Numbered from the stretch's first letter, positions 19,252-39,836 are shown. The stretch: DNA of 40,377 bases from Candidatus Saccharibacteria bacterium HGW-Saccharibacteria-1 (GCA_002839415.1 PGXZ01000010.1:1-40377), one strand, 5' to 3'. The notes: generated from the sequence alone by a model not told the origin. A program made the numbers and translations.

Positions 19252-19283
19252 AATAAAATAGACCCCAATGGGTCTATTTTATT
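19252..19283 (-). terminator. Bidirectional intrinsic terminator next to tRNA-Leu(CAG)
   Basis: A perfect 14-pair stem (arms 19252-19265 and 19270-19283) encloses a four-base loop and carries A- and T-rich ends on both sides, so it can work in either direction. On the minus strand it begins directly after the tRNA's CCA end. Confidence 0.85.
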
Positions 19284-19369
19284 TGGTACGCGAGAGAAGA
19301 CTCGAACTTCCACATCTTTACAGACACTAGCACCTGAAGCTAGCGCGTCTACCATTCCGCCACTCGCGC
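19284..19369 (-). tRNA. tRNA-Leu(CAG)
   Basis: Read on the minus strand, the acceptor arms GCGCGAG and CTCGCGT pair, and the anticodon stem CTAGC/GCTAG holds the loop TTCAGGT with anticodon CAG. A long variable arm typical of leucine tRNAs is present, and CCA is encoded. The 5' end lies 12 bases after the stop codon of the FAD oxidase, so it could be processed from that transcript. Confidence 0.93.
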
Positions 19370-21150: not shown

Positions 21151-22920
21151 TTACGCGCGAGTGGTGGAATTGGTAGACACGCTAGCCTTAGGAGCTAGTG
21201 CCTCCGGGCGTGAAGGTTCAAGTCCTTTCTCGCGTACCATAGAAACAATCCCAGAATGTGAGAGCCGAAAAAGCTCATTCACCCCTGGGATTTTTTCTAT
21301 TTCAGCGGATCCACATTCGATTAATGAGTAGTTTGGTACTGTATCGAATATAACCCCAAAATAGCGTGCTCGTAGTATTGGATTACAGTGGTCAATTAGT
21401 AAATCTTTCATGTGTTCCACAAAGTATTTGATGTATGTCAAGATAGTTGGAATATCTATAGTCTTTTTGTTCATTTCTTCTCCTTCTGTATTGTCTATAT
21501 TAGTAATTTGTTGCTCAAGCTCTATTAATTCCTCCTCCATGTACTTAATTGCTGTTGGTGAGCTGATTAGTTTAATTTTATCTACAATCACTCGAATCTG
21601 CGATTCAAGTTCGGTACGTCTATTAGCATGAAGAATATCTTCGTTTTGTAAATTGACGTTGCGCTGCCTCCAAACTTCAGTCACTGCTTCGGCCACTTCA
21701 TCGAAACGTTCTGGACTAATCGTAACCTTGTCGATAAATGAATTAATTGCCGTATCGAATTTGTCCTTTGGTACGCGGAAATAGTGACCGTGATGACTAC
21801 AATGGTAGGCGGGGTAGTATTTGCCCAGACGACCACGTGAGGCGCTTCCTAGTAGCGGATTATTGCAATGTGGGCAGGTGATTAGCTTACGATATGGAAA
21901 CTCCTCATTATAAACGTTTTTCTTAGCAAATTTTTCTTGTTTCTGTGTATGCCCAACGATTGGTTGTTCTGGATTATTTGAATCAAAAGAAATGCTAATT
22001 CTGCCATGATTAGCTTTATTAAATAATTCGACAGAAACCAAACCTTTGAATTTACATTTTACCGGTTTATCACCAGTCCATTTTTCGGTATTGATTCCAG
22101 CGTAAATCGTTTTATTGATATAAGCACGTAATAACTTAGCTGTCATAGGCTTGCCGCCGGTTCGTTTGACGATTTTCGTGCGGTCATTTTTGTCGCGTAT
22201 TACTTTTATAGGCGTACGAAACCCTAGATTATTCAGTTCTATTGCGATTTGCTCGTCGCTGTATATTCCAGCAGCTCGCATTTCAAACATCTTACGAACA
22301 AGAGGTGCTTCATCTGGGTTCTCGATCAAGACAACTCTTTTACCGTTAACTGTTTCGATCTTTTCTGTCAGGTAGCCGTAACGAGCAGCTCGAGACCAAT
22401 AACCGATTTGAGTGTAGCGGATTTCAGAGCCAATCATTCGAGTTAGGATATCTCGAACTTCGTCCTTTGCCCGTTCGGCTTCAAGTAATTCGGTTTTGCG
22501 AGTTGGAGCATGTACGCTCCATTTGTATTTCATACCTAGGTGTTCTAGGGTGTTTATTTTTACGTTGCTGATAACTCCGTGCATATCTTCGAGGTCGACA
22601 TTGTACGGTTCTAGCTGACGCCTTAATAGATCATAGGTAGTTGATCCGCCACGGGTAAATCGATCAATAGACTTAATGAGTACGACATCGATTCCATTTT
22701 TGGGATCAATGGCGTAATCAATAACGTGTTGCATCGGCTGATTATCGCCGGCGGCCGATTCGAGATATGTTAGGATCTTGGTAATATTTATGCCGTGGTT
22801 CGGCGCATAGCGTTTACCTTGCTCTATTTGGGCTTCAGGTGAGTCGCCATCAATACCTTGACCAACTGTCGAGACTCGAACAGCCAATACTCCGTTACGC
22901 GATTGTGTCATATTCTGCAT
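21151..22920 (-). CDS. Large serine recombinase/integrase
   Basis: The N-terminal resolvase domain carries the catalytic serine (S17) in AVRVSTVGQ and the supporting arginines in IDRFTRGG (about residues 80-89). A recombinase DNA-binding domain follows (about 165-300), then a zinc ribbon (CPHC plus CSHHGH, about 345-385) and a coiled coil (about 420-480). At 589 residues it is a typical large serine integrase. The last 28 or so residues, including GLEPSRPEALAPK, are encoded antisense to the tRNA-Leu(UAG) gene; the stop codon lies just beyond the tRNA's 5' end. This is the pattern left by site-specific insertion at a tRNA 3' end. ATG 22920 or the internal ATG three codons later may be used; both lie within the preceding small ORF. 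Confidence 0.93.
   Translation of the reverse strand: MQNMTQSRNGVLAVRVSTVGQGIDGDSPEAQIEQGKRYAPNHGINITKILTYLESAAGDNQPMQHVIDYAIDPKNGIDVVLIKSIDRFTRGGSTTYDLLRRQLEPYNVDLEDMHGVISNVKINTLEHLGMKYKWSVHAPTRKTELLEAERAKDEVRDILTRMIGSEIRYTQIGYWSRAARYGYLTEKIETVNGKRVVLIENPDEAPLVRKMFEMRAAGIYSDEQIAIELNNLGFRTPIKVIRDKNDRTKIVKRTGGKPMTAKLLRAYINKTIYAGINTEKWTGDKPVKCKFKGLVSVELFNKANHGRISISFDSNNPEQPIVGHTQKQEKFAKKNVYNEEFPYRKLITCPHCNNPLLGSASRGRLGKYYPAYHCSHHGHYFRVPKDKFDTAINSFIDKVTISPERFDEVAEAVTEVWRQRNVNLQNEDILHANRRTELESQIRVIVDKIKLISSPTAIKYMEEELIELEQQITNIDNTEGEEMNKKTIDIPTILTYIKYFVEHMKDLLIDHCNPILRARYFGVIFDTVPNYSLIECGSAEIEKIPGVNELFRLSHSGIVSMVREKGLEPSRPEALAPKASVSTNSTTRA
21155..21239 (+). tRNA. tRNA-Leu(UAG), probable integration target
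   Basis: The acceptor arms GCGCGAG/CTCGCGT, the anticodon stem CTAGC/GCTAG with loop CTTAGGA (anticodon TAG), a long variable arm and an encoded CCA all fit. The whole gene is overlapped antisense by the recombinase frame. Its 3' end is the most likely left junction of the element to the right. Confidence 0.94.
21247..21296 (+). terminator. Intrinsic terminator after tRNA-Leu(UAG)
   Basis: AATCCCAG pairs with CTGGGATT, an inner GAATG/CATTC stem extends it, and six T residues follow. It lies inside the recombinase coding sequence (opposite strand), so the presumed element supplies the tRNA's terminator. Confidence 0.8.
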
Positions 22921-23321: not shown

Positions 23322-23556
23322 TAGGTCTATTTTACAATAAATATGTTTAGAGTGCTAACATTTAACTTCTTGCCAGTTGAATTATTAACGTACAACCTAT
23401 ATATAAATAGTATTACAAATTAAGATAAAAAGCAATACTTTTTATAACTTATTTATGATAAAATATGCGAAATTACGATATTCCATACATCTAACCTTAA
23501 TTACTACTGTTATCTATTGCTTTTATTCTCTCTTTCTTATATATAAATATATAGAA

Positions 23557-24381
23557 ATGAATAAGAGAGTTGATGTAAATATCAGAGATGGTCGTTCGGC
23601 TATAAAACAAGGTCAGATAGATATACTAGAGGCATTATATAAATATCGTTTTGGTAGTCGGCATTTGATTGCAAAGTTACTTAGTATAAATGAAAATACG
23701 TTATATAAAAAATTAATAGTGTTAGTAAAACATGAGTTAATCGGTAGTAGATTAGATAATAAATCTAAAATTAAAGGTATTCCAGTTGCGTATTATTTGA
23801 CGCCAAAAGGACTTAAATTCCTTCAAGCCCTAGAAAAACATACACATGTCACGGATAAGGTTATAAAGGCTAGCTATCGAGATAAGGTAACCTCAGAAGC
23901 TACTATTCTGCACGCCTTTGATGTGTTATCTCAGGTTTTGAATTTGAAGAATCAGTATTCGCAATTAAAAGCTTACTTACGTCGTGACATGAGCCGATTT
24001 AGCTACTTTCCAAAAACACCGCCCGACGCTTTTTTGTCGATTGCACATGATAATGTGACCAGGCGGTATTTCTTCGATTACATACCTTCAAGTCAAGAAC
24101 GAAAGTTATTGTTTCAAAGAATCTATTCTTATCTTGATTTCTTTGATAATGGAGGCTGGAATATTACTGGAACTGAAATTCCTATCTTATTATTTGTTAC
24201 CGAGAATGCTACTATGGAGCGCCGAATTAGACGCATCGCAAAGGGCGTAATAAATAAAATAGAGATTAATGACGAAATTATCATATACACCACCACTAAA
24301 AAGGCTCTGGAAAATCCAAATAGGGAAGTGATGATATGGTCAGAGCTAAACGATCCAGATGAGCTTGTATCACTAATTTAA
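23557..24381 (+). CDS. Replication-relaxation family-like protein
   Basis: The N-terminal part (from RSAIKQGQIDILEALYKYRFGSRHLIA) is a winged-helix domain. The middle has the LTPKGLKFL turn and SEATILHAFDVL region typical of the replication-relaxation (PF13814) family, which occurs on plasmids and integrative elements. The C-terminal half resembles a nuclease-like alpha/beta fold (FFDYIPSSQERKL). The frame is open upstream to 23455, which would add 34 hydrophobic residues. ATG 23557 is preferred because the family is cytosolic and TATAAA lies nine bases upstream. It is read divergently from the RHH and recombinase genes. Confidence 0.65.
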   Translation: MNKRVDVNIRDGRSAIKQGQIDILEALYKYRFGSRHLIAKLLSINENTLYKKLIVLVKHELIGSRLDNKSKIKGIPVAYYLTPKGLKFLQALEKHTHVTDKVIKASYRDKVTSEATILHAFDVLSQVLNLKNQYSQLKAYLRRDMSRFSYFPKTPPDAFLSIAHDNVTRRYFFDYIPSSQERKLLFQRIYSYLDFFDNGGWNITGTEIPILLFVTENATMERRIRRIAKGVINKIEINDEIIIYTTTKKALENPNREVMIWSELNDPDELVSLI

Positions 24382-24891: not shown

Positions 24892-24918
24892 TGAGCCTTT
24901 TAACGTCCTGCTCAGGAC
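24892..24918 (-). repeat. 27-base 3' element, copy A
   Basis: Begins 9 bases after the stop of the 58-residue gene on the minus strand. Arms TGAGC/GCTCA (outer) and GTCCT/AGGAC (inner, tetraloop) can pair alternatively. Compare copies at 25132 and 27846. Confidence 0.7.
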
Positions 24919-24927
24919 ATGATAAAA

Positions 24928-25104
24928 TCACTCCTTAATAACAATATCTTCAATCAAACCGGTGTGAGATACGCTATCTGTGATATTACCAGACTTGTCA
25001 GTCCAAACCTGTACATAGAATGGCTCGACATACCAGCTATTTGCCTTGGCAATCTTAATCCAAAACTCTCGATGCTTTTCAATCTTGATTTGCGATAATT
25101 TCAT
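24928..25104 (-). CDS. Small unknown protein, 58 residues
   Basis: An ATG (complement of 25102-25104) is preceded by AAAGGAG at seven bases. The product, beginning MKLSQIKIEKHREFW and ending IEDIVIKE, has a helical start and beta-rich centre with several aromatics; it has no Cys and no membrane segment. I do not recognise it. It lies directly downstream of the DUF3768 gene on the same strand, 62 bases apart, and the intergenic space holds copy B of the 27-base element; copy A follows its own stop. This looks like a phage or plasmid accessory gene. Confidence 0.65.
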   Translation of the reverse strand: MKLSQIKIEKHREFWIKIAKANSWYVEPFYVQVWTDKSGNITDSVSHTGLIEDIVIKE

Positions 25105-25131
25105 AATTTACTCCTTTATGAATAATTTTGA

Positions 25132-25158
25132 TAAGCCTTTTTACGTCATGCTTAGGAC
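25132..25158 (-). repeat. 27-base 3' element, copy B
   Basis: Begins 8 bases after the DUF3768 stop on the minus strand. Outer arms are TAAGC/GCTTA, a paired change from copy A; the inner arms GTCAT/AGGAC have one mismatch. Confidence 0.7.
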
Positions 25159-25166
25159 GATATGAT

Positions 25167-25490
25167 CTAATATTCCCCAGCCAACAGTACAGTCAAAACT
25201 CGCTCACAACCCGGATCGAGTGGGTCATGCCATTTCTGTGATGCCTGGTCGTAATAATCTATTTTCCAGAACATCTTGTTGTCCATAAATTCGAATGAGC
25301 CAAAATCATGTTCGCCGTACGGATCGTTATTTTCGTTAAAATTGCTATAGTCTTGAACTAACTTTAATATCTCTAAAGTCATATCAAGCGCAATAATTCC
25401 TCGAGTAAATAAATACCCAACTTTTTGCTGACGGAAAGCATCGTTTAAGATTGCTATTTTATTTTCTTGAACTATATCTTCGGTGTTCAT
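25167..25490 (-). CDS. DUF3768 family protein
   Basis: The 107 residues match the DUF3768 pattern: an early AFRQQ plus LFTRGI segment, then NDPYGEHDFGSF (residues 55-66), FWKIDYYD, and the terminal DPLDPGCERVLTVLLAGEY. The family is common on phages, plasmids and integrative elements and has no known function. AGGAGG lies five to six bases before the ATG. The upstream region carries a promoter-like module that recurs upstream of the gene at 27882. The 27-base element follows the stop codon. Confidence 0.88.
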   Translation of the reverse strand: MNTEDIVQENKIAILNDAFRQQKVGYLFTRGIIALDMTLEILKLVQDYSNFNENNDPYGEHDFGSFEFMDNKMFWKIDYYDQASQKWHDPLDPGCERVLTVLLAGEY

Positions 25491-25562
25491 TAGAACCCTC
25501 CTTATTTTCTGGGTGGACTTTCTGCCACTCTGTATATCAGAACCTCGGGCTTAAGCTAAATA

Positions 25563-25615
25563 TGTCAAGGTGGAGACTTGTTACTACCTTGACGTAGTTA
25601 GCTATCCCGTATAAT
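25563..25615 (+). promoter_or_regulatory. Inverted-repeat/promoter module, copy 1
   Basis: TCAAGGT (25565-25571) and ACCTTGA (25586-25592) form a perfect inverted repeat. The right arm overlaps a -35-like TTGACG, and TATAATGAG follows with a 15-base spacer. The left arm read on the minus strand also gives CTTGACA. It lies 75 bases upstream of the DUF3768 start and resembles the module at 28231-28302. Confidence 0.6.
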
Positions 25616-25745
25616 GAGAAGACAGAGGAAGGAAGAACACTTACTGAAGTGGCGTTATTGCAATCTATGTAACTCGGTCTAACTGATTATGTTATAATTA
25701 TTAAGTTACTTTAGGGGTTATTAGTCAAAATAAAATGATTTGTTT

Positions 25746-26090
25746 ATGAAAAATATAATGAAGAAATATGGCATAGTTTCAATCGTGCTAATAATAAGTA
25801 CCCTACTTAGTCTTTGCAATTTTACTACCTTTTTATCACATAACAACCAGACAAACAGTTCTGAATCTAACTGCTATTCTTCGTGTACATCACATAATCA
25901 ACTAGCTACTAAGTTTAGATTAGAAGCTAAAAATGAGAGCAACGTAGAGCCGACACCAAAAAACTTTACCTGGCCAATTATCCAGCCTAATATATTAATA
26001 CTATATACTTGCAGTTATTTATTATTTATAGTGCTTTGGTATTTATATGAACAAAGAAAGATACCGTTAACGTCGTTACTTAGATTTTAA
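25746..26090 (+). CDS. Small membrane protein with two transmembrane segments
   Basis: I do not recognise a family. Hydrophobic segments lie at about residues 6-24 and 86-103, with a polar 60-residue loop between them that should face outside. The loop contains NCYSSCTSH, a C-x3-C pair that might be redox-active or bind metal. The gene is followed after 45 bases by a DsbA-like thioredoxin and then a CDF metal transporter on the same strand, so a shared role in envelope redox or metal handling is possible but unproven. TTG 25740 is in frame but ATG 25746 is the natural start; a TATAAT lies at 25693-25698. Confidence 0.65.
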   Translation: MKNIMKKYGIVSIVLIISTLLSLCNFTTFLSHNNQTNSSESNCYSSCTSHNQLATKFRLEAKNESNVEPTPKNFTWPIIQPNILILYTCSYLLFIVLWYLYEQRKIPLTSLLRF

Positions 26091-26135
26091 AATTAATTGT
26101 TTAGAAAATAACAATTAATTTAAATGGAGTAATTT

Positions 26136-26771
26136 ATGCAAAACAAAAGTATTATTATAATAATCTCGATACTTATACTGTCTTTTATTGGGGCTGTAGT
26201 ATATGGAAAAATTTCTGAGCAACAAGCACCAAAAAGTAGCGGATCAAACCATATATACGGAAAAACTGATAGTAAAGTAACGTTGACTGAGTTTGTAGAT
26301 TTTCAGTGTGAAGCCTGTTATTCGTATTATCCAATAGTAAAAGAAGTAAAGGAAAAGTATAAAGATAAAGTCAAGTTTCAAATAAAGATTTTTCCGATTT
26401 CAAGTTCACACCAATATTCACGAATGGCGACCAAGTACGCAGAAGCGGCTTCAGTGCAAGGTAAATTTATTGAAATGCATGATAAGATATTTGAAGGACA
26501 AAAGGAATGGGAAACAGCAGAAAAGCCTCAGGTCTATTTTGAGACTTATGCAAAAGAACTTAATCTAAATATGGATCAGTTAAAGACCGATATTGCTAAT
26601 AAGTTCGTCGACTCTATAATTGAAGCTGACATGAATGAACTTAGAAGCCTCGGTGGAAAGGGCACCCCAACCTTCGTGCTAAATGGTAAGTTAATAGATA
26701 ACCCAGAGCAGTCAACCGAAGCGTTTTCAAAGATATTAGATGATGCACTTGAGCAAGCTGATACAAAATAA
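26136..26771 (+). CDS. DsbA-family thiol:disulphide oxidoreductase, membrane-anchored
   Basis: An N-terminal hydrophobic segment (about residues 5-23) anchors the protein outside the membrane. The thioredoxin fold carries the redox motif C58-E-A-C61 in FVDFQCEACY, and the cis-proline loop is GTPTF near residue 175. The inserted helical domain (residues about 90-160) is of DsbA/Com1 type. The family introduces or isomerises disulphides in exported proteins. GGAG precedes the ATG. No VKOR or DsbB partner is visible here; the preceding membrane protein has a cysteine pair in its outer loop and could be a partner, which is speculation. Confidence 0.9.
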   Translation: MQNKSIIIIISILILSFIGAVVYGKISEQQAPKSSGSNHIYGKTDSKVTLTEFVDFQCEACYSYYPIVKEVKEKYKDKVKFQIKIFPISSSHQYSRMATKYAEAASVQGKFIEMHDKIFEGQKEWETAEKPQVYFETYAKELNLNMDQLKTDIANKFVDSIIEADMNELRSLGGKGTPTFVLNGKLIDNPEQSTEAFSKILDDALEQADTK

Positions 26772-26821
26772 TATCAAATAAAACTAGCCTGTAATAGGCC
26801 TAAGATAAGGATTAAAGATTA

Positions 26822-27691
26822 ATGAGTCATAACCACGGTAACAATGATGGAAATATAAAATTTGGGATAATACTCAATAGTCTTTATACTGTCGTTGAAT
26901 TTTGTTTTGGTATCTTTACAGGAAGCTTGGCGCTTATAGCAGACGCTACTCATAATTTGACCGATACATTTACTCTGAGCGTCTCTTACTTTGCAAATAA
27001 ACTTGCTAAACGTGATGCGAATAGTCGAAAAACCTATGGCTATGGACGAGTAACGATACTGGCAGCTCTACTGAACTCCAGTGTAATGCTGGCGGTAGCT
27101 ATCTTTATTGCCTACGAGGCGGTTCAACGATTGAATAACCCTCAATCTATCGAAGGTGGTATCGTAGCTTTAGTTGCAACGGCAGGTATCATAGTAAACG
27201 GTTCGATAGCTTTTGTACTATATAAAAGTCGAAAAGACCTAAACATGCGTAGTGCATTTATAGATATGGCATTTGACGCTTTGTCATCATTAGGTGCGGT
27301 TGTGGCGGGCTTGATTATACTACTTACGGGTATTCAATGGGTAGATACTATTGTTGGTTTTATTATTGCAGCCTTGCTAGTTTATAACACTATCAAAATA
27401 CTATACGAAGCTGTGCATATATTACTCGAAGGTACACCAAGTGACGTAGATATCGACGCTATAACTCTTGCGATTGTGAGTAATGATAAAGTGATAAGTG
27501 CAGATGATATGCATATTTGGGCAATACGTTCTGGATATAATGCACTTAGCTGCCATATAGTTGTAGATAAAATTAACATAAAAGATAGTTGTAATATTAT
27601 AAGTACAATAAAGAACTCCTTACGAAAAGATTTTAACATCAATCACGCTACTATCGAGGTTGAATTAGAAAATTGCCAAGTTCATAAGTAA
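26822..27691 (+). CDS. Cation diffusion facilitator (CzcD/ZitB-like) metal transporter
   Basis: The protein has six predicted membrane helices and a C-terminal metal-binding domain (from about residue 205, DDMHIWAIRSGYNALSCHIVV), typical of CDF proton/divalent-metal antiporters that export Zn, Cd, Co or Mn. The transport site in helix 2 is H44-x3-D48 within ADATHNLTD. In helix 5 the usual His is replaced: D148-x3-D152 in FIDMAFDALSS. The N-terminus has a short His-rich stretch. AAGGA precedes the ATG. It is the last gene of a likely three-gene run with the membrane protein and DsbA-like protein. Confidence 0.93.
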   Translation: MSHNHGNNDGNIKFGIILNSLYTVVEFCFGIFTGSLALIADATHNLTDTFTLSVSYFANKLAKRDANSRKTYGYGRVTILAALLNSSVMLAVAIFIAYEAVQRLNNPQSIEGGIVALVATAGIIVNGSIAFVLYKSRKDLNMRSAFIDMAFDALSSLGAVVAGLIILLTGIQWVDTIVGFIIAALLVYNTIKILYEAVHILLEGTPSDVDIDAITLAIVSNDKVISADDMHIWAIRSGYNALSCHIVVDKINIKDSCNIISTIKNSLRKDFNINHATIEVELENCQVHK

Positions 27692-27735
27692 TTTTATTCA
27701 ACCACTCTTTATAATCAGAGAATAACGAAGGTTGA

Positions 27736-27834
27736 ATGATAGGCTTTTATTGGCATAAGTTTGATAAATTAAGCGTTAGCTGGAAAGACGGCCGATCTTT
27801 TATAGTTGTACTCTTGGGTTTAATTAAGAACTAA
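27736..27834 (+). CDS. Possible 32-residue small ORF
   Basis: ATG 27736 follows a TATAAT (27710-27715) and a weak AAGG. The product begins MIGFYWHKFDKLSVSWKDG and ends in a hydrophobic stretch (FIVVLLGLI). An eight-pair inverted repeat (ATTCAACC at 27696-27703 and GGTTGAAT at 27730-27737) brackets the -10 and reaches the start codon, which could be an operator. Coding status is uncertain. Confidence 0.3.
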   Translation: MIGFYWHKFDKLSVSWKDGRSFIVVLLGLIKN

Positions 27835-27845
27835 AGCTAGGTTTT

Positions 27846-27872
27846 TGAGCAGTTTTAAGTCCTACTCAGGAC
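27846..27872 (-). repeat. 27-base 3' element, copy C
   Basis: Begins 9 bases after the stop of the DUF7249-like gene on the minus strand. As minus-strand RNA the outer arms TGAGT/GCTCA pair with one G-U; the inner arms GTCCT/AGGAC are perfect. Confidence 0.7.
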
Positions 27873-27881
27873 TACTCGAAC

Positions 27882-28172
27882 TCAGTCGAGATTGTTCTGG
27901 ATTATCTCAATCCAGTCGATTCGACTGAACGCCTGGTTGAGTAGGTCTTGCCAAAGACTAGCTTCGTCGATAATGTCTTCGAGTTGCCAACTCAGGCTTC
28001 GTTTAAGCCACTCGGCTTTGTCGGACACTTCAGCTTCAAGCTCCAAGGCTTCGCACAGGATAGAGTAGTTGTACTCGTCATTTGTAAGCCAGAGATGTCC
28101 TAGCCAGGTCTCGTAGTTACTCCACCCATTGTAGGTAAGGTTAGCTTGTTGTTCTACTGCTGATTCGTTCAT
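27882..28172 (-). CDS. DUF7249-like phage/plasmid protein
   Basis: The 96-residue acidic, Trp-rich protein begins with NGWSNYETWLGHLWLTND (from residue 15), the hallmark of a small family seen in phages and plasmids and now filed under DUF7249; function unknown. The rest is helical. AAAGGAG precedes the ATG. Like the DUF3768 gene it has the inverted-repeat module upstream and the 27-base element after its stop, so both genes appear to belong to the same expression cassette type. Confidence 0.75.
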   Translation of the reverse strand: MNESAVEQQANLTYNGWSNYETWLGHLWLTNDEYNYSILCEALELEAEVSDKAEWLKRSLSWQLEDIIDEASLWQDLLNQAFSRIDWIEIIQNNLD

Positions 28173-28230: not shown

Positions 28231-28302
28231 TGTCAAGCTGGAGCGCCCCTGACGTTTACCAGAGAACGAACGAGCTTGATAGTTTTGCTCGGTACGTATA
28301 AT
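28231..28302 (+). promoter_or_regulatory. Inverted-repeat/promoter module, copy 2
   Basis: TCAAGCT (28233-28239) and AGCTTGA (28273-28279) form a perfect inverted repeat, with the central base pair changed on both arms relative to copy 1. The right arm overlaps TTGATA, and TATAATGAG follows after 15 bases. TGTCAAG-N-TGGAG at the left is shared with copy 1. Confidence 0.6.
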
Positions 28303-28404
28303 GAGGAGGTATGTAAAGGGAAAGGGGTTGTTTTTGTAGTTTTATGCATTATTCATTTTCAAGATAATTATGTCTTGCGAAATATTTTTTTTATGGCTTT
28401 ATTG

Positions 28405-28598: not shown

Positions 28599-29879
28599 AT
28601 GGATGCATACTTTATCGAGATGCTGGGACGATTGAAGTTAAAGAAGGCTCAAAGAGCAGATGCCAAGGCAAAATATAACCGTATAGCCAAAGCATTACAC
28701 GATGAATTTTACACCACAAAGTATGACGGTAAGACAAAACTCCTAATCGGCTCGTATGGAAAAAAGACAAATATACGACCTCCTCAGGACGTGGATTTAC
28801 TGTTTAAGATTCCTGTTGACACATACGAGCAGTATGAGCAGTACAACGGTAACGGTGCTAGTGCGTTGCTTCAAAAAATAAGGAGAATCCTTGACAGTGA
28901 ATATGAGACGAGTGAAACACCTAAAGCGTGGGGTAAAGTAGTGCTGGTTAAATTTCCTGATGGAAAATATGATATTGAACTACTGCCTGCATATGAAGTA
29001 GGTGACGGCGTATATAAGATCCCAAATACGGAAGATGGGGGGTTCTTTGAAGACTTTGACGTAGGTAGTGACCTCGCTGTTGTTTTTGACTCGAATAAAG
29101 AAACGGGGGGCGTAACTCGTCGACTTATCAAAATGGTTAAGAAGTGGAAGCCGCTACATTCCTCGTTGCATACAAAATCTTTTGAGATTGAATCATTTGT
29201 TGCTGATTATTTGAAGTCGGCTAATTACGACAAGATGAGCTGGGCCGAACGCATTGCAGGCTTCTTTGAATGGCTTCAGGTACAACCTAATTTACATCAA
29301 GATGATGTTTCGCTTGTAAAAAATGCGGCAGAACGTGCTCGAAAGGCTGTTAATTACGAAAATGCCGATAAAATTGCTGATGCTTGTGCCGAATGGAAAA
29401 AAGTATTCGATAATGCATTTCCTGCCTACAATAAGAACAAGTGCGCAGTACATAACCTTACACTAAGATGGCAAGTTAATGATGAGATGTATATAGAAGA
29501 CAACTACGATGTAAAAATTAACCCCACGTACAACCTTTCGATAAACGCAGAAGTAGAAGCGAAGAAATTCCGACAGTGGCCGCTCACAGATTTCATTTCG
29601 AAGTACACATACTTACCAAAACATGCCAAGGTGCATTTTAAAGTTAAGTCAGATGTGCCAGAGCCTGTTGAATATCATTGGAAAGTCCGAAATTTTGGTG
29701 CACAAGCGGCAAGTACACAAAATGGATTAAGGGGCGAAATACGGGATAGAGGCGTACGCATAACAGAGTCTACCCTTTATCAAGGTACCCATTATGTTGA
29801 AGTGTACGTAATTAAAGACGATAAGTGTGTAGTGAAGGCGATGCGGTTTGTGCCGATTGGTGATAAGGAGGACTTGTGA
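28599..29879 (+). CDS. SMODS-type (CD-NTase-like) nucleotidyltransferase with AGS-C sensor domain
   Basis: The N-terminal polymerase-beta-like domain has GSYGKKT (residues 51-57), the metal-binding pair D64-x-D66 in PPQDVDLLF, and a third acidic residue D125 in YDIELLPAY, all the residues needed to make a nucleotide second messenger. An OAS/CD-NTase-like helical region follows. The C-terminal domain (from about residue 285) matches AGS-C, the adenylyl/guanylyl and SMODS C-terminal sensor: WKVRNFG, NGLRGEI, and GTHYVEVYVI. The family is known from CBASS-type and related nucleotide-signalling antiphage systems. The next gene encodes a SLATT 2TM effector and starts on its stop codon. The product nucleotide cannot be told from sequence. 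Confidence 0.88.
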   Translation: MDAYFIEMLGRLKLKKAQRADAKAKYNRIAKALHDEFYTTKYDGKTKLLIGSYGKKTNIRPPQDVDLLFKIPVDTYEQYEQYNGNGASALLQKIRRILDSEYETSETPKAWGKVVLVKFPDGKYDIELLPAYEVGDGVYKIPNTEDGGFFEDFDVGSDLAVVFDSNKETGGVTRRLIKMVKKWKPLHSSLHTKSFEIESFVADYLKSANYDKMSWAERIAGFFEWLQVQPNLHQDDVSLVKNAAERARKAVNYENADKIADACAEWKKVFDNAFPAYNKNKCAVHNLTLRWQVNDEMYIEDNYDVKINPTYNLSINAEVEAKKFRQWPLTDFISKYTYLPKHAKVHFKVKSDVPEPVEYHWKVRNFGAQAASTQNGLRGEIRDRGVRITESTLYQGTHYVEVYVIKDDKCVVKAMRFVPIGDKEDL

Positions 29880-30463
29880 TGGATGTAAAAAGTTTAGCAG
29901 TTACGCGCTTTCAATTTGCCCAATCGGTTTTTAATCATAAGATTCAAGAAAAAGCGGCCGATAGAAAGTACGGCTACGCGAAGTGGTTCAAATTTACACA
30001 GCTATTTCTGACTTTGCTGGTGATAACGATACTGGTAGCACAAGCGGCCGGCTTCAATAACAGTATTGTCAATTTAGTTGGAATTATTTCTGTTGGATTC
30101 GAGATTGCTTTTATTATCATCGACCTCACGTATGGATTCGAAAAACAAGCAACGGTACATAAGTCATATGCGCTGAAGTACCTTGAGCTTCGTGTCAAAT
30201 ATCAAGCGCTTATTGCTGACATAATGGCTACGAAAGGATGTTTGCCCATCAATAACGCAAGGAGGGACGCACTAGATGAGGCCTACAATATGCTTTCCGA
30301 TGCGCCACAAACTAGCTCTGCCGACTACGATAAAGCTCAACGTGCATTAGGGACTATTGGAGTAAGTGGGGGTGAACAATATACGTGGTCAGACGAGGAA
30401 ATTAATAAGTTCTTGTCTCCACAATTGAGAATTGTCCCAAAAACAAACACCAAGAAGAAATAG
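29879..30463 (+). CDS. SLATT-domain 2TM effector
   Basis: Two membrane helices (about residues 38-58 and 64-86) are preceded by a helical stretch with a conserved-looking YGYAKWFKF and followed by a long cytosolic helical domain (KSYALKYLELRVKYQ onward), the layout of SLATT (SMODS and SLOG-associating 2TM effector) proteins. These are predicted to form pores when the partner nucleotide is made, damaging the membrane of an infected cell. ATG 29879 overlaps the upstream TGA by one base and has AAGGAGG at seven bases, so it is preferred over GTG 29876. A -10 box for the next gene lies after the stop. Confidence 0.85.
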   Translation: MDVKSLAVTRFQFAQSVFNHKIQEKAADRKYGYAKWFKFTQLFLTLLVITILVAQAAGFNNSIVNLVGIISVGFEIAFIIIDLTYGFEKQATVHKSYALKYLELRVKYQALIADIMATKGCLPINNARRDALDEAYNMLSDAPQTSSADYDKAQRALGTIGVSGGEQYTWSDEEINKFLSPQLRIVPKTNTKKK

Positions 30464-33299: not shown

Positions 33300-34838
33300 A
33301 TGGTAAAACAATTACAAAAAATCGAAGATCAATTATGGAACGCCGCTGATGGGCTTCGTACTAACTCCGAGCTCAGCTCGAACGAATATTCTACCCCCGT
33401 ACTTGGTCTTATTTTCTTGAAGTACGCAGATTATAAATTTGTAACACTTGCTAAAAAGCTTGGTAATGACAATCCAGATAAATTGGACGTGCAAGCTGAG
33501 GGTGTAATGTATCTTCCAAATGAGGCTCGTTTTTCAACACTGCTAAGTTTGTCAGAAGGTTCCGATACTGGCAGGGCAATCAATGAAGCAATGAAAGCAA
33601 TTGAGCGCGAAAATGACGATCTTCGTGATGTATTGCCAAAAAATTATACAACAATTGATAATCAAATTCTTGTTGGTTTATTGAAGAATTTTAACTCGAT
33701 AGATTTTACCGAGGGCGATGTATTCGGCAAAATTTATGAGTATTTCTTGGCGAAATTTGCCCTAGCCGAGGGTCAAGGGGGGGGTGAATTCTTTACGCCA
33801 ACATCTATCGTTAAATTGATCGTGGAAATAATTGAGCCATATAGTGGTAAGATTTTCGATCCAGCTTGTGGTAGTGGCGGTATGTTTGTGCAAAGTGCAA
33901 ATTTCGTTCAGGCACATCACAGATCTGCCAATACTTCGCTGTCTGTTTATGGGCAGGAAAAGGCTGGAGCAACTGTCAAATTAGGCAAGATGAATCTTGC
34001 TGTGCATGGTGTTTACGGTGATATCCGCCAAGGTAATAGTTATTATGATGATATTCATAATTCTGTTAAGAAGTTTGATTTTGTTATGGCAAATCCACCT
34101 TTTAATGCCGATCAAATAGACAAGGATCGTATCAAGAATGATCCACGTTTTCCATTTGGTATGCCTAATGTAGATAACGGTAATTATATTTGGATTCAAT
34201 CTTTTTATAGCGCACTTAATGATAAGGGGCGCGCAGGGTTTGTAATGGCAAATAGCGCTAGCGATGCTAGAAATAGCGAGTTAGAAATTCGTAAGAAGCT
34301 TATCGAAGATAAAGTAGTCGACGTTATGGTCGCCGTCGGACCAAATATGTTTTATACTGTCACTTTGCCGTGTCAGTTGTGGTTCTTCGATAAGGGCAAG
34401 AATAATACTGATCGCGCGAATAAAGTATTATTTCTAGATGTCCGTCACATATTTCATCAGATAGACCGTGCCCACCGAGAATTCACACCGGCGCAGGTTG
34501 AGTTTATCTCAAATATCGTAAACTTGTATCGTGGCGAAGAACCAGAATTTAAGAATGGCAGCGAAGAGTTGTTTAAAGAATACGATCTTAGCATTGAGAA
34601 ATACGAAGACTGTCTCGGATTATGTAAAGTTGCCACTATTAATGAGATAGAGAAACAGGATTGGACTCTTAACCCAGGTCGCTATGTTGGCGTACAGCGA
34701 ATTGAGGTGGATGATTTAGACTTTGTGGCTGAATTCGAAAAATTTACCGAAGACATAGGATTATTAAATACTGAAGCCCACGAGCTAGAAGAGTTGATTG
34801 AAATTAATTCGGGGGAGATCTTAGGTGAAGTTAAGTGA
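33300..34838 (+). CDS. hsdM: Type I restriction-modification DNA methyltransferase subunit HsdM
   Basis: HsdM methylates adenine N6 as part of an M2S1 complex. The N-terminal helical HsdM domain (about residues 5-140) precedes the methyltransferase domain with motif [11 protein letters not shown] near residue 188 and the catalytic motif IV NPPF near 264. The conserved QGGGEFFTP helps bind SAM. The length of 512 residues is normal. hsdS starts 14 bases before its stop codon. Confidence 0.96.
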
Positions 34839-35901
34839 TTTTGTTGACATCAACCCTCGTGTAGTTATACCGAAAGGCACAGAGGCTGAATTTGTACCAA
34901 TGGAGGCAATTGATCCATCACGCCGCTATGTGCAAACTTACCCAAAGAAAAATTATGCCGGTGGTATCAAGTTTGTGAATGGCGATACGCTATTTGCTAG
35001 AATCACGCCTTGTTTAGAAAATGGTAAAATTGCACAGTTCATCTCTAGTTCTGATATTCCAGCTTTTGGCTCAACTGAATATTGGGTTTTTAGAGCAAAA
35101 GAGGGTATATCAGATCCGGGTTACGTATACTATTTAGCTAAGTCCAATTTGTTACGTAAATCAGCTGAAAAAAGTATGATTGGTGCATCTGGTCGCCAAA
35201 GGGCGCAGATAGAGGCGGTGAAAGATATAGACATCGGAAACATTATTTTAGAAGATCAACGGAAGATTGCGGGTATCCTTGGAGCTTATGATGATTTGAT
35301 TGAAAATAATTCAAAACGAATCGAAAAACTTGAATCTATGGCCCGCTTACTGTATCGCCACTATTTTGAAGTTCCTGAAGCTGATAGTTGGGAAGTTGTA
35401 AGAATTGGTGATATTCTCAGTGAAGCTCCTAGATCAAAGAAAATACAAAAGAGTGAATATAAAAAATTCGGGTCCTATCCAATTATAGATCAAGGCAAGG
35501 AACATATCGCAGGCTATACGGATGATATTGAGGCGGTTATTTCAGATAGGCTGCCATTAACTGTCTTTGGTGACCATACGCGTATTATAAAATTAGCACA
35601 AAACCCATTTGCTCGCGGTGCGGATGGAACGCAAATCATTGTAAGTGATATCCTGCCGCCATATTATCTTCATCAAACAATGAAAGGTATATCTATAGTT
35701 AATGAGCATTATGCTAGACACTTCAAATCTTTGAAAATCACTAAAATAAAGAGACCACCAAGTACACTATTGTGTATTTTTGAAGAAAAGGTAGAACCGA
35801 TCTTTAAGCAAATTAACGTGCTTACGAAAAAGAACTATAGTCTTGCTAAGGCTCGAGATCTACTTCTCCCACGTGTGATGATGGGTGATATTGATGTATA
35901 A
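34825..35901 (+). CDS. hsdS: Type I restriction-modification specificity subunit HsdS
   Basis: HsdS sets the DNA target. Two target-recognition domains are visible: the first (about residues 1-135, with [12 protein letters not shown] and STEYWVFR) and the second (about 190-310, with PIIDQGKEH and ADGTQ). Each is followed by a helical conserved region: [20 protein letters not shown] near 150 and the end segment with [17 protein letters not shown]. At 358 residues it is on the short side but complete. The start is GTG 34825 with GGGGGAG seven bases ahead, overlapping hsdM by 14 bases. Confidence 0.95.
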
Positions 35902-36691
35902 ATTGGGTTATATCGATAAACTTGAAGCTTCATTCCAGGAAAGATTGTCGCAAATCTTTAACCTTTCCCATTTACCTCTCAATATCATCAATATCACTAG
36001 CGATTCACTTGGTTCAATTAGTAAAAGTCTAGAAGAGATCAGTGGTTTTAATAGCTCAAAAATAAAAATAAGAAATCAAGTATCTTCAATTAGAAGTATT
36101 GGTAAGAATAAGGATATTCAACGTCAGTTTGAAGTGTTTAATAGCCAAATTGTGGTATTGATGGTTGGCGCGCTTGAGGCTCAATTTTATGACGTGGTGA
36201 AGGCTATTGGTGATCATAATCCTGAGCTCTTTAATTTTGAATCTAATGGTAGTAAACCTAAAGTAATTACTTTTGAGGCTACACTACTTGATGAAAGGAC
36301 ATCCGTTGGGGAAATCATGAGGCATTATTTTAAAGAGCGTGACGGTGACGTTAATTTCCAGGATATTCAAAGTATTGTTCGCTTTTTTTCAGAGCGGCTT
36401 CTTTGTGACTTGGAGATAGATGATTACAGGGATGTGTTGATATTTGCAACTGCTGCACGTAACGTAACGGTTCATAATAATCAGATAATTGATCAGCGTT
36501 TTCTTAATCAGATTAGGGATACGGCCTATGTGGATTTAGAAGTAGAAGATGAAAATGGCTTAAAAAGTAAAAAATATACAACAGGACGGATGTTGAATAT
36601 AAGTAGCAATGATATAGGAGAGATTAAAGAGGCTTTGCTTAGTCTTGTTTCGGAGGTTGGTGTTAAAATAAAGGGAGACTATGAATCGTAA
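35894..36691 (+). CDS. HEPN-motif protein embedded in the type I RM operon (putative RNase)
   Basis: The gene lies between hsdS and hsdR with overlapping ends on both sides: ATG 35894 is eight bases before the hsdS stop, and hsdR begins 11 bases before this stop. The 265-residue protein is helical. A conserved-looking helix (QIVVLMVGALEAQFYDVVKAI, about residues 85-105) is followed near residue 189 by R189-N-V-T-V-H194, the R-N-x3-H active-site pattern of HEPN ribonucleases, within ARNVTVHNNQIID. The arrangement resembles RiboL-PSP/MAE_28990-type HEPN proteins. Its position suggests a toxic back-up enzyme kept in check by the Hsd complex, as PrrC is; that is inference. GTG 35885 is an alternative start. 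Confidence 0.75.
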   Translation: MYKLGYIDKLEASFQERLSQIFNLSHLPLNIINITSDSLGSISKSLEEISGFNSSKIKIRNQVSSIRSIGKNKDIQRQFEVFNSQIVVLMVGALEAQFYDVVKAIGDHNPELFNFESNGSKPKVITFEATLLDERTSVGEIMRHYFKERDGDVNFQDIQSIVRFFSERLLCDLEIDDYRDVLIFATAARNVTVHNNQIIDQRFLNQIRDTAYVDLEVEDENGLKSKKYTTGRMLNISSNDIGEIKEALLSLVSEVGVKIKGDYES

Positions 36692-39600
36692 TTCCGAAGA
36701 CTTAACCACCGAAAAACCAGCTCTAGATCTGCTGGCAAAATTAGATTGGGGAGTGCTGGATGCGTTTGCTGAAAGTGACGGTGCACTACCTGGATTAACC
36801 GGTCGCGAAATGCTTGACGAAGTTGTACTAGTCAAATACCTACGCCCAGCATTAGAGAAGTTTAATCCGTCTGCGCCACGCGATGCCATAGATGCCACTA
36901 TCACTGAACTGCAACGTGATCGTTCTACTATGACGTCTGTTGCTGCTAATCAAGAAATATATAAACTCCTAAAAGATGGCTATAAAACTAGTTTCTTGAA
37001 TGATGCAGGTGAGAATGAGCCGATCACTATTTATATATTAGATATGCTAAATCCGGCAAATAACACTTTCACGGCTATTAGCCAATTTTGGATACTAGGT
37101 AGATTACATAAACGCCGTCCCGATATTATCGGTTTCATTAATGGTCTGCCGTTGGTACACATAGAACTCAAAGCTCCGAGTGAAAAAGCTAGTGATGCAT
37201 ATAATGACAATCTGCGTGATTATCGCGATACCATACCTCAACTTTTTTGGTATAATCAGCTAATTATTATCAGCAATGGTACTGATACCCATGTTGGTAG
37301 TATGACTGCATCACTCGAGCATTTTTCGGAGTGGAAGCGGATTAATGATGAGGGCGAAGTGGGTATTGTAAGTTTAGACACCGCCATTAAGGCGACACTT
37401 GCAAAGGACCGTCTTATCGATATTATAGAGAACTTTATTATATTTACAGTAGGTGATGACGGTAAAACTGCTAAGCTTGTAGCCAAGAACCATCAATATC
37501 TTGGTGTAAATAACGCTGTAGAAAGCCTACGTAGTGGCACTGATGGTAGGTTGGGTGTATTTTGGCATACACAGGGAAGTGGCAAAAGCTATTCTATGGT
37601 GTTTTTTGCTCAAAAAGTAATGCGCAAAGTTCCTGGCAACTGGACATTCGTAGTGATTACTGATCGCTTAGATCTAGATAGACAGATTTATAAAAACTTT
37701 GCTCGAGCTGGTGCGGTAACGGAATTAGAAGAGAATGTCCGTGCTAGTGATAGTGGTGATCTACACCTCAAGCTCCAAGCTGATCATCGCTATGTGTTTA
37801 CCCTTATCCACAAATTCCAGACTATTGACAGTTTAGAAATGTCTGTGGTATCAGGGCGTGACGATGTAATTGTTATGACCGACGAAGCTCATCGTACACA
37901 ATATGCAACGCTTGCACTTAATATGCGGAACGCTTTACCGAATGCTCGATTCATCGGCTTTACTGGTACGCCTCTAATAGCTGGCGAAAATGAAAAGACT
38001 AAGGAAGTATTTGGTGACTATGTTAGTAAGTATAATTTTAAACAAGCAGTTGACGACAAAGCCACTGTACCGTTGTACTACGAAAATCGTATTCCGGAAC
38101 TACAGCTTACCAACGAAAACTTTAGCGAAGAGCTTGATGTTCTACTAGAAGAAGCTGAGCTGGATAAAGAACAAGAAAAACTTTTAGAGCGACAGTTTGC
38201 GCGCCAGTACCATTTGGTGACACGCGATGACAGATTAGAGCGAGTTGCCCAAGACATTGTTGAACATTTTATTAATCGCGGCTTTCAGGGTAAAGCTATG
38301 GTCGTCTCTATTGATAAGATGACGGCCGTTCGTACCTATGACAAAGTTAAGAAATATTGGCAGAAATCGATAAATGCAATTGAGGCTCGCCTCGATAGTG
38401 ATTTATCTAAAAAAGTACGCCAAGATCTTGAAGAACAACTTATTTACATGCGCGAAACTGACATGGCTGTGATTATTAGCCAATCCCAAAATGAAGTTGA
38501 TGACTTTCGAGCTAAGGGCTTAGACATTTGGCCACATCGCGAACGCATAGTTAAAGAAGATCTCGAAGAGTACTTTAAGCAGCCTATGCATAATTTACGG
38601 ATAGTTTTTGTCTGTGCTATGTGGATCACTGGTTTTGATGCTCCTGCTGTAAGCACGATCTACTTAGACAAACCAATGCGCGGACACACTCTTATGCAAA
38701 CAATTGCTAGAGCAAACCGCGTGTTCAAAGGTAAAGAAAACGGTTTGATTGTTGATTATATCGGTGTGTTTCGCGATCTACAGAAAGCACTTTCTGTATA
38801 CGGCCAAGGCACCGATGGCGAAATGCCGGTGCGCAAAAAATCAGAGATGATCACTGAACTTAATACTGTTTTGGCAGATATAGAAAACTTTACCTTGCAA
38901 GTAACAGGTCATAGTCTTGAAATAATAGAGAGACATAAAGGATTTGAGCGTGTTGCTGATATCGAAAGATTCGTTGATGCTATCGTATCGTCTGAAGACA
39001 GCAAGAAAGAATTTAATGGACTAGCAAACGTTTTTACTAAGTTATTTAAGTCCATCCTGCCCGATCCTTTGGCTAACCAGTTCCTACCCATCTATCAGCT
39101 GCTGCGTACCTTGCAAGGCCGGATGTATTCGCTTGTTGGCGATGTATCAATCGATCATATATCAGCTAGTCTTGAAGATTTGCTTGATAAGTCGATCGAG
39201 GCTGGAAGCTATACTATTAAAGAACTACAAGCCGACGAAATTATCGATCTTTCACAGGTAGATTTTGAAAAGCTACAAGAACAGTTCGGCGTCACGAGTA
39301 AGAACATTCAAACTGAAAAGTTGAAGAATGAGATCGACCAGCGCCTAAAGAAGATATTAGAACTTAACAAAACCCGTATGGAATTAGCTGATAAGTTCCA
39401 AAAACTGATCGATGAATACAATGCAGGCTCGAAAAACATTGAAGAATTCTTTAACGAGTTACTAGTCTTTGCTAAAGAATTGGACGAAGAAGATCAGCGA
39501 GCGGTACGCGAAGAAATGAGCGAGGAAGAGCTGGTAATTTTCGACCTGATTGTTCGCCCAGGTCCTGAGCTTTCGATAGCTGAAGTGGGGCAAGTGAAAA

Positions 39601-39836
39601 AAGCCGCGCGTGATTTATTGATGGACTTGAAGCAAAAAAAGCTAGTACTTGATTGGAAGAAGAGCCAGCAAAACCGCGCCATAGTCCAGCGTACAATTCG
39701 TGATGTACTAAATGACGAACTGCCGTCTGGCTACGATAGTGTCTGGCAACGAAAAAAACTTGGCGTCCTCTATGAACACTTTTATGAATCATATGAAGAC
39801 TCACACCTTAATGCTTATCAGAGTGTAGATAAATGA
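36681..39836 (+). CDS. hsdR: Type I restriction endonuclease subunit HsdR
   Basis: HsdR translocates and cuts unmodified DNA. The N-terminal nuclease domain (about 1-250) contains the PD-(D/E)XK region ending HIELKAPSE (E-x-K) near residue 160. The SF2 motor has Walker A HTQGSGKSY near residue 295, DEAHRTQ near 400, FTGTPL near 430, and IARANRVFKGKENG in the motif VI region near 680. The C-terminal 300 residues are helical for complex assembly. GGGAG is six bases ahead of the ATG. The length of 1051 residues is normal, and no frameshift is seen, so the system looks intact. Confidence 0.95.
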   Translation: MNRNSEDLTTEKPALDLLAKLDWGVLDAFAESDGALPGLTGREMLDEVVLVKYLRPALEKFNPSAPRDAIDATITELQRDRSTMTSVAANQEIYKLLKDGYKTSFLNDAGENEPITIYILDMLNPANNTFTAISQFWILGRLHKRRPDIIGFINGLPLVHIELKAPSEKASDAYNDNLRDYRDTIPQLFWYNQLIIISNGTDTHVGSMTASLEHFSEWKRINDEGEVGIVSLDTAIKATLAKDRLIDIIENFIIFTVGDDGKTAKLVAKNHQYLGVNNAVESLRSGTDGRLGVFWHTQGSGKSYSMVFFAQKVMRKVPGNWTFVVITDRLDLDRQIYKNFARAGAVTELEENVRASDSGDLHLKLQADHRYVFTLIHKFQTIDSLEMSVVSGRDDVIVMTDEAHRTQYATLALNMRNALPNARFIGFTGTPLIAGENEKTKEVFGDYVSKYNFKQAVDDKATVPLYYENRIPELQLTNENFSEELDVLLEEAELDKEQEKLLERQFARQYHLVTRDDRLERVAQDIVEHFINRGFQGKAMVVSIDKMTAVRTYDKVKKYWQKSINAIEARLDSDLSKKVRQDLEEQLIYMRETDMAVIISQSQNEVDDFRAKGLDIWPHRERIVKEDLEEYFKQPMHNLRIVFVCAMWITGFDAPAVSTIYLDKPMRGHTLMQTIARANRVFKGKENGLIVDYIGVFRDLQKALSVYGQGTDGEMPVRKKSEMITELNTVLADIENFTLQVTGHSLEIIERHKGFERVADIERFVDAIVSSEDSKKEFNGLANVFTKLFKSILPDPLANQFLPIYQLLRTLQGRMYSLVGDVSIDHISASLEDLLDKSIEAGSYTIKELQADEIIDLSQVDFEKLQEQFGVTSKNIQTEKLKNEIDQRLKKILELNKTRMELADKFQKLIDEYNAGSKNIEEFFNELLVFAKELDEEDQRAVREEMSEEELVIFDLIVRPGPELSIAEVGQVKKAARDLLMDLKQKKLVLDWKKSQQNRAIVQRTIRDVLNDELPSGYDSVWQRKKLGVLYEHFYESYEDSHLNAYQSVDK

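Follow-up and report, generated by a model that had tools for sequence, protein, structure and literature searches.

What does a 27-base sequence do when it recurs just behind three unrelated small genes? The question is raised by a 40,377-nt stretch of DNA from Candidatus Saccharibacteria bacterium HGW-Saccharibacteria-1 (GCA_002839415.1, PGXZ01000010.1:1-40377), which was analysed at its full length and is called the window here. An original prediction, made from the sequence alone, placed three minus-strand copies of exactly 27 bases between positions 24,892 and 27,872, each 8-9 nt past a stop codon, and suspected a selected RNA structure. The copies and their spacing are as described (gaps of 9, 8 and 9 nt), and the genes ahead of them are indeed unrelated: one is a 58-aa open reading frame (ORF) with no Pfam family, the other two encode DUF3768 and DUF7249 proteins. 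We are left in very little doubt that the element is real, that it is widespread, and that it is an RNA pseudoknot under strong constraint, located at gene ends.

Fold, covariation and invariant core

The element is 26-27 nt long. Stem 1 (S1) pairs N1N2C3 with G12N13N14, and the tetraloop of this hairpin is complementary to a downstream arm, so that the arms form an H-type pseudoknot, in which stem 2 (S2) joins positions 6-9 to 23-26 (RAGY with RCUY). All three copies fit the family descriptor. Copy 1 (24892-24918, minus strand, 27 nt, 5' to 3' GTCCTGAGCAGGACGTTAAAAGGCTCA) also fits the core on direct reading of the sequence: S1 is formed by 24918-24916 with 24907-24905, loop 1 (L1) by 24915-24914 (CU), S2 by 24913-24910 (GAGC) with 24896-24893 (GCUC), and loop 2 (L2) by 24904-24897 (GUUAAAAG), with AAA at 24901-24899; A10 is at 24909. 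Copy 2 (25132-25158, minus strand, 27 nt, GTCCTAAGCATGACGTAAAAAGGCTTA) has S1 at 25158-25156 with 25147-25145, S2 at 25153-25150 (AAGC) with 25136-25133 (GCUU), and L2 at 25144-25137 (GUAAAAAG). In copy 3 (27846-27872, minus strand, 27 nt, GTCCTGAGTAGGACTTAAAACTGCTCA), S1 lies at 27872-27870 with 27861-27859, S2 at 27867-27864 (GAGU) with 27850-27847 (GCUC), which includes one G-U pair, and L2 at 27858-27851 (UUAAAACU).

The outer arms show what was originally claimed for them, a G-C pair replaced by A-U and a G-U pair. The inner GTCCT/AGGAC stem proposed at the same time stands in part: only three of its base pairs covary across the family, and the arms of the middle copy (GUCCU/AUGAC) contain a C-U mismatch. 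Where we depart from the original prediction is in the supposed competition between inner and outer stems, which need not compete because they are compatible as one H-type pseudoknot. A competing-stem switch is ruled out by this compatibility and by position 4-11, which is unpaired in 47 of 51 sequences.

For an unbiased test of covariation, IMG/VR was searched with each stem left wholly free in turn. With S1 free, 121 of 124 matches pair fully or with wobble, the versions found being GTC/GAC, GAC/GTC, CAC/GTG, ATC/GAT, CTC/GAG, CCC/GGG, GCC/GGC, CGC/GCG, AAC/GTT, TCC/GGA and others. With S2 free, 144 non-redundant matches were obtained, including GAGC/GCTC, GGAC/GTCC, GGGC/GCCC, AAGC/GCTT, AGGC/GCCT, GGCC/GGCC, CAGC/GCTG and AGTC/GACT among other versions. 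Both interleaved stems of the H-type fold are therefore backed by compensatory change. Across 51 distinct sequences, 96.4% of cells are paired and covariation is 0.661, as against 0.248 after shuffling and no more than 0.154 when the partners are slid; these pair counts lean on rows picked for diversity, whereas the raw free-stem tallies do not. Wobbles on the sense strand are strongly skewed towards G-U over A-C (97 versus 13; 38:11 among distinct sequences), which indicates that selection acts on the mRNA-like strand. The early suspicion that a structured RNA, read from the coding strand, is under selection is thereby borne out. Copies within a single phage differ in S1 (L374, L389, L593, L622), as if identical copies were avoided; the phage of locus L374 has six versions (AAC, ATC, CAC, CTC, TAC and TTC).

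The unpaired positions were left free in further collection-wide searches. C4 was retained in 129 of 130 matches, U5 in 111 of 113, A10 in 113 of 113 and A18-A20 in 168 of 168, and the C3-G12 pair was kept in 127 of 130. A18-A20 are followed by C or A and then by U or G, while position 11 is variable, mostly U. The resulting consensus is NNCCU-[S2]-A-N-GNN-NNN-AAA-M-K-[S2'], often with A next.

Distribution and placement at gene ends

Among 394 genomes of the window's family, 26 carry the pattern, at 51 places, and the reversed pattern gave none; the host genome itself has nine copies. In the fetched loci 751 elements fit, versus 1 in reversed sequence, and the first pattern gave 418 matches versus 0 for its reversal. 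Most of these loci were retrieved with family patterns, so the totals of 751 and 418 are not frequencies and the 394-genome count gives the cleaner estimate of chance. The full descriptor is present in 93 of 104 genome-contig loci. A focus on Patescibacteria, as first advised, proved too narrow: most copies found come from contigs of tailed phages and from prophages in a wide range of phyla, alongside the Saccharibacteria mobile elements, with Firmicutes, cyanobacteria, Deltaproteobacteria, Saccharibacteria and a few other taxa represented. Among the named phages with the element are Lactobacillus KC5a, Leuconostoc LLC-1, Streptococcus Javan271, thermophilic D6E, Synechococcus S-EIV1, Arthrobacter Molivia, Nostoc NMeng1 and Staphylococcus phages 80 and B236. 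Matches by blastn in Vibrio, an Acinetobacter plasmid and Klebsiella were partial or at an unconvincing site and are not counted as members. The original prediction had named two outcomes that would speak against it, an absence of further copies and arms that change without compensation; further copies exist, and their arms are compensated. A full-text literature search for the consensus core and for phage intercistronic pseudoknots, with most subscription papers outside its reach, returned no prior description.

The distance from stop codon to element is 4 nt or less in 6 cases, 5 nt in 12, 6 nt in 143 and 7-12 nt in 187, that is, with a floor at 5-6 nt, and genes whose stop lies 4-14 nt away are sense in 152 cases and antisense in 4. 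Wherever a locus has at least three copies, all are on one strand (49 of 49). Co-directional junctions are favoured (180:22 versus a background of 2968:770), and the next start codon is seldom nearer than about 18-20 nt. A same-strand tRNA begins 2-11 nt after 19 elements, where 0.24 are expected, and none is antisense. In some cases, among them copy 3 and Saccharibacteria loci L003, L021, L064 and L069, the next gene is convergent and there is no downstream cistron to serve.

The genes upstream are unrelated (RNR, Hsp20, portal, terminase and DUF3768), hence the role of the element is gene-independent. A tie to DUF3768 was considered, since the element is present at most DUF3768 loci of related genomes, and rejected because it follows unrelated genes too. 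Use after every gene is likewise ruled out: in multi-copy phages the copies cluster in one module, which in several holds DNA polymerase and SSB genes. Firmicutes copies lie between the minor head and scaffold genes. In Firmicutes prophages (L006, L009, L041, L080, L100 and L235), an intrinsic terminator ends directly ahead of the pseudoknot; the genes on the upstream side differ there, the leader and scaffold gene do not, and the element therefore marks a variable-gene boundary. Additionally, the stretch from the pseudoknot to the scaffold start codon holds a second stem-loop-like motif (GCGTG/CACGC type) in some Firmicutes leaders (L009, L063, L071 and L072).

A putative barrier to mRNA decay and its alternatives

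We tentatively favour the idea that the element is a gene-end mRNA insulator or decay barrier that protects the 3' end of the upstream cistron, though we would put its chances somewhat short of even. The A-rich L2 may fit into the S1 groove, by analogy with compact pseudoknots of the luteovirus type, yielding a small, mechanically stiff knot. A ribosome halted at a stop codon covers a length close to the observed spacing floor, which suggests that the knot would sit just past the mRNA entrance of such a ribosome and would never be opened by translation of the upstream gene. At the border between cistrons it could then stop exonucleases that work from 3' to 5', and possibly further kinds of processive machinery. 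Whether the mRNA had ended by termination, had been cleaved by an endonuclease or had been cut by RNase P at a downstream tRNA, the upstream frame would keep a protected 3' end, and each cistron would decay independently of its neighbours. The position at cistron 3' ends is the one expected of a barrier to 3' exonucleases. The tRNA neighbours and the convergent cases also favour a role for the upstream cistron, since the only mRNA end beside a tRNA-adjacent copy is the 3' end of the upstream gene.

Several observations weigh against such a barrier. Many Firmicutes phages have the element immediately behind an intrinsic terminator and some tens of nucleotides ahead of the scaffold gene, where by its site it resembles a leader of the gene that follows. 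Copies are grouped in one region of the phage genome instead of standing behind every gene. Finally, E. coli genomes gave no consensus match to a single 30-base query, which diverged copies could escape; if the target were universal machinery, this absence would be unexplained.

Alternatively, the invariant core might be recognised at gene ends by a host or phage protein or ribonuclease, for cleavage, protection or localisation. The constancy of the core goes far beyond what a knot with a purely mechanical function would seem to need, and the clustering of copies on a single strand in phage modules is in keeping with a binding or processing site. An intramolecular triplex would fix core bases as well, however, and one phage-encoded partner is improbable because the element spans phages of Firmicutes, cyanobacteria, Saccharibacteria and others. 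On balance we regard recognition of this kind as unlikely, if worth keeping in mind.

Only a little less probable, in our view, is a function as leader of the downstream gene, whereby the element would guard the 5' end left by processing against decay of the RNase J type, or would regulate the next gene. Bacillus-type prophages keep the element, a leader of about 58 nt and the scaffold gene while the upstream gene varies (L009, L081, L195, L202 and L214), and the Rfam family GP20-b, whose label 'Cis-reg' implies a downstream role, sits at the same site. This does not account for the tRNA-adjacent and convergent copies, which have no downstream ORF, and the stop-codon spacing floor links the element to the gene before it.

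A part in transcription, whether as a pseudoknot terminator or as an antitermination signal like put RNA, seems improbable. A T-run follows 31% of AG-type copies, U-rich tracts lie behind some Firmicutes copies, and some Firmicutes copies stand directly behind intrinsic terminators. On the other hand, the window copies lack a following T-run, just as originally noted, as do most others (18% of CT-type and 4% of Saccharibacteria copies have one), and the element is enriched within operons, not at their ends. An ordinary intrinsic terminator finds no support on the same grounds, the stem of the window copies having no directly following U-tract and the placement being operon-internal.

The fold also calls to mind recoding. 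Compact luteovirus-type frameshift pseudoknots, for example that of beet western yellows virus, are H-type knots of about 27 nt: loop 1 has two bases, the first of them C, a single base is extruded where the stems meet, and loop 2 ends in AAA. The element is like them in size, loops and extruded base, a likeness that serves as a lead and not as a test; and its spacing of 6-9 nt is that of viral recoding pseudoknots, within the 5-9 nt from the decoded codon at which these act. It is unlike them in having no recoding signature and in sitting after the natural stop codons of phage genes. UAA is enriched among these stops (72% at close range versus about 50% in the background), spacers of 6, 7, 8 and 9 nt all occur so that no single frame is kept through the element, and with an 8-nt spacer the zero frame meets a stop within the element. 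Beyond the stop, no ORF runs on in the same frame or in a shifted one. Reading frames and stop usage speak clearly against readthrough and frameshifting; a recoding stimulator of any sort is very improbable. Least credible of all is a DNA-level or selfish repeat (a mobile palindrome, recombination boundary or single-stranded-DNA structure), for although the element is multi-copy, resides on mobile elements and, in some prophages, sits at the edge of the variable genes, its compensatory stem variants within one phage (six S1 versions in L374), its one-strand placement in all 49 multi-copy loci and its G-U asymmetry point to transcribed RNA.

Known RNAs, genomic setting and wider meaning

The closest known RNA is GP20-b (Rfam RF03003), a possible relative, to which we do not assign the element. 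Rfam scans of long stretches gave no match, while a short stretch matched GP20-b at 13.5 bits in window copy 1, and Lactobacillus phage KC5a gives 20.5 bits, both below the gathering cut-off of 36.2; 13 Firmicutes-phage loci gave no GP20-b match at that cut-off. The model aligns in register (GUC ... G-C-GU-AAAA) with both of these copies. Like the Firmicutes copies, GP20-b is phage-associated, lies between a minor head gene and a GP20 scaffold gene and has its matches in a Firmicutes order; the window contains no GP20-type scaffold gene downstream of the element. The Rfam model differs in being a simple hairpin, a second hairpin and a tail, 62 nt in all, and the genuine members examined have a longer S1 loop and no CCU...A core. 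GP20-b is not known to occur after unrelated genes. Three sequences matching GP20-b (L696 1500-1583, L698 1495-1584 and L697) carry GUC...GAC GUUAAAGAA CAAGA; they allow a possible related pseudoknot whose junction is longer, a fold that the Rfam hairpin model does not show.

The proposed role has functional analogues, with no homology implied, in repetitive extragenic palindromic (REP) and other intercistronic 3' stabilisers and in the exonuclease-resistant RNAs (xrRNAs) of flaviviruses, all structured borders that block exonucleases. REPs differ in being palindromic hairpins, and xrRNAs in forming larger rings that block 5'-3' enzymes. The xrRNAs are reported to block exonucleases without protein cofactors (PMC5760640). 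The STAXI motif is a pseudoknot RNA near phage or antirestriction-type genes (PMC2864571); it consists of tandem repeats with UUCG loops, whereas the element occurs as single copies without UUCG and gave no STAXI match in Rfam scans. The L17 downstream element, a structured RNA of bacterial 3' untranslated regions (PMC2864571), follows one ribosomal protein gene only and is not reported as such a pseudoknot.

In the window, the 58-aa ORF (24928-25104, minus strand, stop TGA at 24930-24928) ends 9 nt ahead of copy 1; it matches no Pfam family above cut-off, and a relative also stands ahead of the element in L064. The DUF3768 gene (25167-25490, minus strand, E 2.3e-23, stop TAG at 25169-25167) ends 8 nt ahead of copy 2. 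The DUF7249 gene (27882-28172, minus strand, E 8.7e-10, stop TGA at 27884-27882) ends 9 nt ahead of copy 3, and because the next gene (26822-27691, plus strand) is convergent, no cistron directly follows that copy. The DUF7249 stop codon lies within a short hairpin (27875-27890, minus strand) immediately 5' of copy 3. Hairpins of this kind are over-represented ahead of Saccharibacteria copies (minimum free energy p 0.0018; e.g., L420, L428 and L431); across all elements the trend is not significant, and we do not count a general upstream hairpin as part of the element. In one paralogue of the window's DUF3768 gene (G000:C8:7999-8235; L415, L003), an in-frame TGA replaces a conserved Trp while the downstream element is still there; this is probably a pseudogene. 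Ahead of the DUF3768 and DUF7249 genes the sequences are dissimilar except for CTCATTATACG, present in both (25608-25618 and 28295-28305, minus strand), which may be a shared promoter -10 region.

Genes for a SMODS nucleotidyltransferase and a SLATT protein (CBASS-like) and for type I restriction-modification adjoin the copies (28599-30463 and 33300-39836). The region may be an integrated mobile element, to judge from its serine recombinase (21151-22920) and Replic_Relax gene (23455-24381). Imperfect inverted copies of a tRNA-like sequence (19278-19313 and 21210-21245) flank 19.3-21.2 kb and are possibly an attachment-site remnant.

More broadly, the element may belong to a so far undescribed, gene-independent class of intercistronic RNA, present in tailed phages and mobile elements from many bacterial phyla, that sets cistrons apart within polycistronic mRNA and does so by blocking exonucleases without a protein partner, with GP20-b as a specialised relative, although we rate this wider claim as doubtful, at roughly one chance in three. 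If it is true, Rfam's GP20-b would fall within a far larger family, and a tiny, portable 3' insulator would be available for synthetic biology. Phages and mobile elements of very different hosts would then be using one minimal RNA part at their gene ends, which would explain how neighbouring genes in compact phage operons come to have independent mRNA levels.

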